Shown here piece after piece: positions 1,121 through 13,026 of a stretch of 15,394 bases of DNA. Position 1 is the stretch's first letter. Each line of letters begins with the position of its first letter. Below the pieces are notes generated by a model that saw nothing but the letters and a program-made list of their open reading frames with translations, ran no database searches and was not told where the DNA came from. A program made the position numbers and the translations under genes. Origin of the DNA: Deltaproteobacteria bacterium (GTDB lineage: Bacteria; Bdellovibrionota_F; JAHFAK01); NCBI GenBank assembly GCA_023250585.1, contig JAHFAK010000016.1, positions 11,266-26,659 on the forward strand. The letters are read 5' to 3'.

Positions 1121-1699
1121 CTACTCGGTATCTATGAGTTCTTTAATAACCGAATCTATATGGCTTGCGAGATGTTCGATTCCTTGAGTATTGATAATAG
1201 TATAATCTGCCATGGCAATAGGTCCACCTTTTTCGATTTTTTCTATTTCAGCATAATCACGTGTTATAGCATCTTCTCTTTTAATTGAACGAAATGTATG
1301 AGTTGTATCGTTTTTAAATTGATCCGCTCTATTCGTTAAGCGTTCATAGCGAAGCGCCGGAGGAGCATAAATAGCCAGGACATAAAATTGCTTATTGAAT
1401 TTCTCTTTCAAGATTTTATATTCGGACCAACTATATAGCCCATCAATAATAACATGATGTGCAGAATGCTCAATTTTATTTAGATTAATAATTGCATAAG
1501 CAGCCATTCCATGTGTTTTACGAAGCTCTTCACGAATTATCCGTTCATTCTGTTCGTTTACATCAAGGCCTCTTTTTTTAATTTCATCAATTGTGGCTTG
1601 ACCAAAACGAATATAATCAAAACCTGCTTTTTTAAAATATTCTGCTGCATATGATTTCCCTGCTCCCGGCATTCCCACAATTGCGACAATTTTTTTCAT
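1121..1699 (-). CDS. P-loop nucleotide kinase-like protein (UPF0200 / dephospho-CoA kinase-like)
   Basis: A 192-residue protein of the P-loop kinase fold. The Walker A motif GMPGAGKS is at residues 9-16. A DGLYSWSE segment at 86-93 follows a hydrophobic strand (VIID), in the place where relatives have a DGxRSxxE motif. RYERLTNRAD at 117-126 matches the lid-type arginine region, and RD(147-148)...ADYTIIN(164-170) matches the C-terminal RD...ADYxIxN pattern of UPF0200. That family is best known from archaea and is related to dephospho-CoA and adenylate kinases. Its substrate is unknown, so I give no symbol. The ATG at 1699 has AAGGAG about 7 bases upstream. The gene is divergent from larE across the palindrome at 1736-1856 and leads a likely two-gene transcript with the 226-residue gene. 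It could be a nucleotide kinase linked to the neighbouring cofactor pathway, but this rests on position only. Confidence 0.85.
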   Translation of the reverse strand: MKKIVAIVGMPGAGKSYAAEYFKKAGFDYIRFGQATIDEIKKRGLDVNEQNERIIREELRKTHGMAAYAIINLNKIEHSAHHVIIDGLYSWSEYKILKEKFNKQFYVLAIYAPPALRYERLTNRADQFKNDTTHTFRSIKREDAITRDYAEIEKIEKGGPIAMADYTIINTQGIEHLASHIDSVIKELIDTE

Positions 1700-1735
1700 A
1701 ATTTACTCCTTAGAAGTTTTAACGAAAGATGTTCT

Positions 1736-1856
1736 TTAAAGAGGAGTGCATATGTTCTTTTTTTATTTCCTATCGATCGCGCTTTCCTGTTCTTAATACT
1801 ATTATGGAAGCGACGTCGATAGGAAATAAAAAAAGAACATATGCACTCCTCTTTAA
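1736..1856. repeat. Long perfect palindrome (41-bp arms) in a divergent promoter region
   Basis: Arms 1736-1776 and 1816-1856 are exact inverted copies over 41 bp. Inside them, after a 3-base internal loop, CGCTTTCC (1780-1787) pairs with GGAAGCG (1806-1812) apart from one bulged T, leaving an 18-base loop (1788-1805). The folded structure spans 121 bases and could form a cruciform in DNA or a very stable RNA hairpin. It fills most of the 230-base gap between the divergent kinase-like gene and larE. It is therefore not a normal terminator, since no transcript from these genes ends here. Each arm contains GAGGAG five bases before an ATG, giving mirror-image tiny reading frames. A weak competing 5-bp hairpin, CCTCT/AGAGG (1848-1852/1859-1863), overlaps the outer end of the right arm. 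The sequence is unlike the 320-443 element. Confidence 0.9.
1752..1840. other. Mirror-image Phe-rich mini-ORFs in the palindrome arms
   Basis: On the plus strand, 1752-1796 encodes MFFFYFLSIALSCS and a stop. On the minus strand, 1840-1802 encodes MFFFYFLSTSLP and a stop. Both start inside an arm with GAGGAG five bases upstream, and both end in the loop region, so they differ only at their C-termini. The shared FFFYF comes from the T-rich stretch of the arm. Translation is possible from the signals seen, but the duplication follows automatically from the palindrome. The evidence that either is a real gene is slight. Confidence 0.2.
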
Positions 1857-1888
1857 CTAGAGGTTCTTCTTCTCATAGTACTTTAAAT

Positions 1889-1917
1889 TTGACAAAAATT
1901 TCTTTTTTATTGATATA
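1889..1917 (+). promoter_or_regulatory. Candidate promoter for the larEBC operon
   Basis: A consensus -35 box TTGACA is at 1889-1894. A 17-base spacer is followed by GATATA at 1912-1917, or with a slightly longer spacer by ATATAC or TATACG, in the context TTGATATACG. A transcript from here would start about 5-8 bases before the larE ATG at 1930. The mRNA would then be leaderless or nearly so, which agrees with the lack of a good ribosome binding site. The -35 match is strong and the -10 match is only fair. Confidence 0.45.
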
Positions 1918-1929
1918 CGCTTTTGAGAT

Positions 1930-2733
1930 ATGGATCAAGAAATTCAAGCAAAATACCTTGTGCTTCAAAACATTATTAAAGATTATGGACAGGTGCTTGT
2001 TGCATTTTCAGGTGGAACTGACAGTACAACCCTTGCTAAAATTGCCTATGATACACTTGGATCTTCTGCAATCGCTATTACTGGCGAGAGTGAGACACTT
2101 AAAGAAAAAGAGCTCCTTCATGCAAAGACTCTTGCCAAAGAAATAGGCATTAGCCATCAGATTATTAAAACCGATGAGTTACGCAAAGAATCATTTGCGA
2201 GCAATCCGAGTAATCGATGTTATTACTGTAAACATGAATTGTTTTCAAAACTTATTGAACGTGCTCGAGCCAATAAGATTCCCCATATTATTGAAGGCTC
2301 AAATCTAGATGATTTATCTGATTATCGTCCTGGGTATAAAGCCGCTCAGGAGTTTAATATTAAAAGCCCATTTCTAGAAGCAAAGCTCAACAAATCCGAG
2401 ATTAGGCATCTTGCAAAGAGTTTAGGAATTTCAAATTGGAATAAAGCAGCTGAACCATGCCTTTCGAGTCGAATTCCCTATGGGACATCAATTGATCTGA
2501 ATAATTTACGAAAGATTGAAGCTGCTGAAGCCTTTCTTGATGAAATCGGATTTGGTTATAGACGGGTGAGATTTCATGAAACTATTGCACGTATAGAAGT
2601 AAATGAAACTGATTTTTCGACGTTATTAAAACATCGTGAAGTGATTTGTAAACGTTTTAAGGAGTTAGGATTTCTTTATACAACCCTTGATCTTAAAGGC
2701 TACCGTATGGGAAGCATGAATGAAACGCTTTAG
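1930..2733 (+). CDS. larE: LarE, ATP-dependent sulfur transferase for NPN cofactor synthesis
   Basis: LarE is a cytoplasmic PP-loop enzyme. It adenylates the two carboxylates of pyridinium-3,5-biscarboxylic acid mononucleotide and replaces them with thiocarboxylates. The 267-residue length is typical. The PP-loop SGGTDS is at residues 27-32 in VAFSGGTDS, DYRPG is at 131-135, NWNKAAEPCLSSRIPYG at 169-185 holds the sulfur-donor cysteine position (Cys177), and the end is TLDLKGYRMGSMNETL. Unlike the Lactiplantibacillus enzyme, which I recall as having no cysteines at this site, it has a Cys97-x-x-Cys100 pair (NRCYYCK). Three cysteines fit the [4Fe-4S]-type LarE that is reused rather than sacrificed; this is inferred from family knowledge. 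It is first in the operon, with larB starting 5 bases after its stop. The ATG gives an N-terminus that aligns well with the family. Confidence 0.95.
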   Translation: MDQEIQAKYLVLQNIIKDYGQVLVAFSGGTDSTTLAKIAYDTLGSSAIAITGESETLKEKELLHAKTLAKEIGISHQIIKTDELRKESFASNPSNRCYYCKHELFSKLIERARANKIPHIIEGSNLDDLSDYRPGYKAAQEFNIKSPFLEAKLNKSEIRHLAKSLGISNWNKAAEPCLSSRIPYGTSIDLNNLRKIEAAEAFLDEIGFGYRRVRFHETIARIEVNETDFSTLLKHREVICKRFKELGFLYTTLDLKGYRMGSMNETL

Positions 2734-12920: not shown

Positions 12921-12938
12921 TTGAATGCAACTTCGTAT
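12921..12938 (-). repeat. Solitary arm of the 320-443 element
   Basis: Read on the minus strand, this is ATACGAAGTTGCATTCAA. The left arm at 320-337 is ATACTAAGTTGCATTCAA, so 17 of 18 bases match. No second arm or internal sequence of the element is present nearby. It ends 2 bases before the tamB ATG codon and contains the alternative TTG start. Confidence 0.55.
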
Positions 12939-12954
12939 AAGTAATTTAATCAAC

Positions 12955-13026
<72 letters not shown>

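Follow-up and report, generated by a model that had tools for sequence, protein, structure and literature searches.

A perfect palindrome upstream of larE as a probable solo copy of a dispersed, mobile-element-like hairpin repeat

The palindrome at the larE locus

The window analysed here, that is, the whole stretch of 15,394 nucleotides, carries a P-loop kinase-like gene on the minus strand and a larE-larB-larC cluster on the plus strand, in which LarC matches PF01969 Ni_insertion (5e-146). Arm comparison confirmed the original prediction that two perfect 41-bp inverted arms with a 39-nt centre lie between the divergent kinase-like gene and larEBC. The features of the locus are the following.

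1121..1699, minus strand: P-loop kinase-like gene (AAA_18/AAA_17), neighbour
1700..1735: 36-nt spacer that separates the kinase-like gene from the palindrome, with neither MITE end nor target duplication
1736..1776, plus strand: left arm, 41 nt, with a purine-rich foot (TTAAAGAGGAGTGC) followed by ATATGTTC, a T-run and TATTTCCTATCGA; exact inverted repeat of 1816-1856
1777..1815, plus strand: asymmetric head, conserved across nearly all of the ~80 copies
1777-1779 (TCG) versus 1813-1815 (ACG), plus strand: internal mismatch in the head
1780-1784 (CGCTT) and 1808-1812 (AAGCG), plus strand: short apical stem in the head, where pairing resumes past the 3-nt mismatched step
Between the strands of the apical stem, plus strand: loop of the head, approximately TCCTGTTCTTAATACTATTATGG, with unlike halves
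1816..1856, plus strand: right arm, 41 nt, reverse complement of the left arm
1857..1929: 73-nt spacer that separates larE from the palindrome, with a TTGACA-like hexamer near 1889
1930..2733, plus strand: larE-like PP-loop gene, neighbour

The 41 consecutive matches of the arms far exceed chance expectation and, with three mismatches permitted, the arms reach 49 nt with 23 nt between them. The predicted fold has an energy of -75.7 kcal/mol, as opposed to -21.9 +/- 3.3 for shuffled sequences (z = -16.6), and outward of both arms the flanking DNA is no longer complementary. As expected of a MITE, the palindrome has dispersed copies and no coding capacity; a peptide within it (GGAG...ATGTTCTTT, both strands) was rejected because variation in T-run length breaks the frame and the ATG is missing in some copies. 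An Rfam search of the window returned a tRNA gene at 12955-13026 (minus strand) as its sole match and none for the palindrome. The hexamer near 1889, at which a promoter scan made no call, suggests a putative larE promoter within 1857..1929, outside the palindrome.

A dispersed family in two forms

A covariance model places the hairpin repeat (hereafter family A) at no fewer than about 80 scattered sites of its own genome (123 matches before the two strands are merged), and the asymmetric central head is common to all copies. With 150 of 753 first-look candidates scored, this copy number is a lower bound, also because assembly probably fails at these palindromes: in this draft of 164 contigs with N gaps (estimated completeness 96.7%), a gap of 10 Ns lies within the copy at C44:11567, and copies are found within ~150 nt of the starts of contigs C40, C47, C55, C124 and C140. 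Searched as a pattern with up to three mismatches, the arm matched four more loci of the genome, each on both strands as expected of a palindrome, and a head pattern gave 47 matches. Outside its own genome, the covariance model found no copies in the one class relative examined, and in 98 sampled relatives only short stretches of the flank, beyond the palindrome itself, were matched by chance. The head pattern had no matches in IMG/VR or GTDB r220 (84,980 genomes), and the palindrome none in the phages or plasmids searched, these being collections that may omit records of the genome itself.

The copies occur in two forms. Thirty-eight of them sit inside a MITE with ends GTAAT.CCTCAGTTA and GTAAC(T)AGCTCAGTTAATGGGG, flanked by 8-bp direct target duplications that are intact around most of the 38 and have a mean identity of 6.3/8, as opposed to 2.3 when partners are shuffled. 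Elsewhere in the genome, a GGATCCCGCGG-type hairpin unrelated to this one lies between the same ends; hence, the MITE acts as the vehicle, and the hairpin seems to be its cargo. A GTAAT MITE lacking the hairpin was observed in the region of C60:4862 (L141 ~2838-2876), with a deletion between short GCC repeats and its duplication retained, a possible instance of palindrome loss. About 37 copies, the window copy included, are solo and show neither terminal inverted repeats nor target duplications. Their flanks differ from the MITE ends at 6.49 of 15 positions on average, versus 6.56 for random genomic sequence, and the notion that solo copies are decayed MITE copies was therefore rejected. We infer mobility of the solo form from its dispersal alone.

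All solo copies are intergenic, as are the extragenic REP and REPIN sequences; two that appeared to lie in reading frames fall where the start of a MazG-like gene and that of an IscS-like gene had been extended too far. Their gaps are tight (medians of 20 and 16 nt to the neighbouring genes) and, among the 33 classified, 23 are codirectional, eight divergent and two convergent. The genes beside them are unrelated to one another, and the head is oriented with the genes in 12 cases and against them in 11.

Other palindromic repeats are present in this genome. A second hairpin, family B, has about six copies with head TTGCTTCCTCTTATAAAACTTCACTGAGCAA and the same layout as family A; its head is invariant in five of six copies, and its arms are 29% apart between copies and perfect within the copy in five of six. 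The following copies were located.

L254, 3366-3473: family B copy
L255, 2399-2512: family B copy
L256, 2801-2910: family B copy
L257, 2388-2507: family B copy

Within the window, a further palindromic element with dispersed copies (ATACTAAGTTGCATTCAAA...TTTGAATGCGACTTAGTAT) is represented at positions 320-443, with arms of 19 nt and ~86 nt between them. More copies of this element occur on C6, C14, C22, C68 and C75, with a less exact one on C73, and the C22 copy abuts a family A hairpin. Possibly a half copy of the 320-443 element, the sequence TTGAATGCAACTTCGTATAAGTAATT at window 12921-12946 pairs with that element's end.

No autonomous partner of the family A repeat was found in searches covering IS66 transposases, Y1/RAYT-like genes and three end pairs. 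IS66 elements have GTAA ends and 8-bp duplications, but the genome has no IS66 transposase and IS66 was rejected as the source of the MITE. Candidate pairs of MITE ends on C60, C10 and C42 were likewise discarded as autonomous elements, since they enclose ordinary genes only and no transposase was seen. Four Y1_Tnp genes were identified, one IS200-like and three longer, RAYT-like genes of 189-224 aa, the latter on C32, C47 and C69.

L253, 2501-2938: Y1_Tnp gene
L250, 3086-3739: Y1_Tnp gene
L251, 3329-3898: Y1_Tnp gene
L252, 4515-5189: Y1_Tnp gene

In the sequence read around these genes, which extended no further than a few kb on either side, none of the four is flanked by family A hairpins, and no REP-like repeats were recognised next to the three RAYT-like ones. 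The nearest hairpin is a MITE-type copy ~4.4 kb off on C47, and adjacency to RAYT genes of the kind seen for REPs and REPINs was thus rejected.

Matched arms, inverted heads and competing explanations

The sequence of the arms varies from copy to copy and their pairing is retained. Arms differ between copies by a mean of 31% in solos and 23% in the MITE form, and within a copy only 18 of 2435 positions in register are mismatched (0.7%). An alignment of 36 solo copies reveals double changes in 39 of 48 predicted pairs, with one-sided (G-U) changes a rare, small minority in the arms, and the closest MITE pairs differ by 50 changes matched in both arms versus 12 in a single arm. The lengths of T- and A-runs, which alter by slippage, are equal across arms in 34 of the 36 solo copies, where nine would be expected by chance, and the apical stem also covaries in copy C44:6407. 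Matched changes of this kind are those of an arm-homogenised inverted repeat. The heads of solo copies differ by 12%, as opposed to 31% for their arms, so that the head may be under some selection, possibly through a host function.

The head bears further marks of exchange. Four copies lack its asymmetry, through conversions in both directions: the right-arm version has replaced the left at C66:6258, C113:13257 and C87:3112, and the left-arm version the right at C58:1056. Relative to the MITE ends the head points one way in 15 copies and the other in 14, as expected of an inverting spacer, and C146:3269 and C7:3724, whose heads and compared arms are identical, carry the head in opposite orientations. 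Template switching between the arms of an inverted repeat is reported to homogenise them and, together with this, to invert the spacer (PMC8604942), and the process has also been proposed as creator and keeper of perfect hairpins (PMC8794818). Since matched arm changes and head inversions are its published marks, we infer that template switching underlies both.

We are thus fairly confident in assigning the window palindrome, as a solo copy, to a dispersed palindromic repeat that is non-coding and mobile-element-like: a hairpin of ~117 bp so far known from its own genome alone, with arms kept paired by arm-to-arm copying. A mobile palindromic element was among the options of the original prediction, to be favoured if several dispersed copies of the arm were found in the genome; such copies exist, and the option is supported by the dispersal of the repeat to ~80 sites, at 38 of which it sits in a MITE with 8-bp target duplications. 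The prediction also held that the palindrome must be either recent or kept. Our results point to the latter, by way of arm-to-arm copying rather than demonstrable selection.

The strongest alternative, if an unlikely one, is a hairpin with a host function, either a site for a nucleoid or replication protein or an mRNA-stabilising intercistronic hairpin like REP/BIME, in which selection keeps pairing and head in each copy. The greater conservation of the head over the arms, in family A as in family B, would fit such a role, and so would the exclusively intergenic position of the solos, a median of ~16-20 nt from genes and mostly in codirectional gaps. Nonetheless, head orientation with respect to the genes is random, no orthologous copies are known, and the near-absence of G-U or single-mismatch intermediates is unlike selection on RNA pairing alone, which is disfavoured because more intermediates would then remain. 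A bidirectional transcription terminator or stable small RNA is very improbable. The hairpin is strong, and repeats of this kind can be transcribed, but only two of 33 solo copies lie in convergent gaps, no Rfam match exists, and arms and run lengths drift freely; the small RNA suggested originally is thus not favoured, given the free arm sequence, the indifferent orientation of the loop and the scarcity of G-U intermediates. Still less credence can be given to the idea that a cruciform or hairpin acts as a switch between the promoters of larE and the kinase-like gene, another of the original options. It draws on the location of a highly stable hairpin between divergent genes, but the same element occupies ~36 further solo sites, in all gap types (divergent in just eight of 33) and beside unrelated genes. 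Its sequence shows no specificity towards the lar genes, and larE-specific regulation was rejected in view of the dispersed copies. Finally, an assembly artefact of metagenomic data, to which a fragmented draft whose N gaps include one within a copy, and several contigs terminating near copies, might point, can practically be dismissed, as originally anticipated: a simple fold-back is unlikely because the flanks stop matching and the head is asymmetric, and any artefact is very unlikely because the ~80 copies differ in arms and flanks while having this head in common, with 8-bp duplications intact around most of the 38.

Proposed mechanism, persistence and known systems

For a mobile-element-like repeat with arm-to-arm copying, the following course may be envisaged. 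The conserved, asymmetric head would probably be recognised by the spreading machinery. During replication an arm would fold back, and DNA polymerase would then switch template onto the opposite arm, so that a change carried by one arm is transferred to its partner. Inversion of the head would result from the same process. Arms would consequently drift among copies and stay mirror images inside each of them. The window copy would have entered, or persisted in, a short space between genes, with no target duplication detectable around it.

Bacterial genomes do not usually retain long perfect palindromes. In E. coli, the hairpins formed at palindromes are cut by SbcCD (PMC4245961). A search that was positive in 14 of 14 control genomes detected the hairpin-nuclease subunit SbcC neither in this genome nor in the only class relative examined, and a weak SbcD match in the genome is a metallophosphoesterase of 251 aa, putatively CpdA/Icc-like. 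Hence, the hairpins may be tolerated because SbcCD is missing. A single genome from a phylum with sparse sampling retains some 80 long perfect palindromes, and SbcC was detected in neither of the two genomes examined from that phylum. The arms of these copies record arm-to-arm copying and head inversion, and they constitute a natural data set for measuring how template switching keeps hairpins perfect.

The hairpin repeat is a previously undescribed variant of the MITE/REPIN kind. With REPINs and REPs, which are moved by RAYT transposases, it shares dispersal, extragenic placement, hairpin formation and the lack of target duplication, and its host genome has three RAYT-like Y1 genes; compensatory changes in hairpin stems have also been reported for REPINs (PMC3116915). 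However, REPINs have conserved ends (the terminal palindromic REP units) and a variable middle, whereas here conservation is central and the ends vary, the arms are perfect over ~40 bp, and no copy adjoins a RAYT-like gene. The repeat is accordingly a candidate for a new layout of small mobile hairpin. As a tentative and rather doubtful extension, it might represent a class of mobile hairpin built the opposite way to REPINs, in which the fixed asymmetric head is the recognised, mobile part, insertion proceeds without target duplication, and fold-back synthesis rewrites the arms whenever the element moves or afterwards, each copy thereby getting its own perfect palindrome. The MITEs are approached by the 38 copies with GTAAT terminal repeats and 8-bp target duplications, but not by the window copy and ~36 others, which have neither. 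ERIC-type palindromes are likewise intergenic, palindromic and ~120 bp long, and are set apart by description, since their arms, unlike those analysed here, are conserved between copies. Quasipalindromes mutated by template switching display the same arm homogenisation and spacer inversion (PMC8604942, PMC8794818); what distinguishes the present case is that both extend across ~80 natural copies in a single bacterial genome, with arms of ~40 bp.
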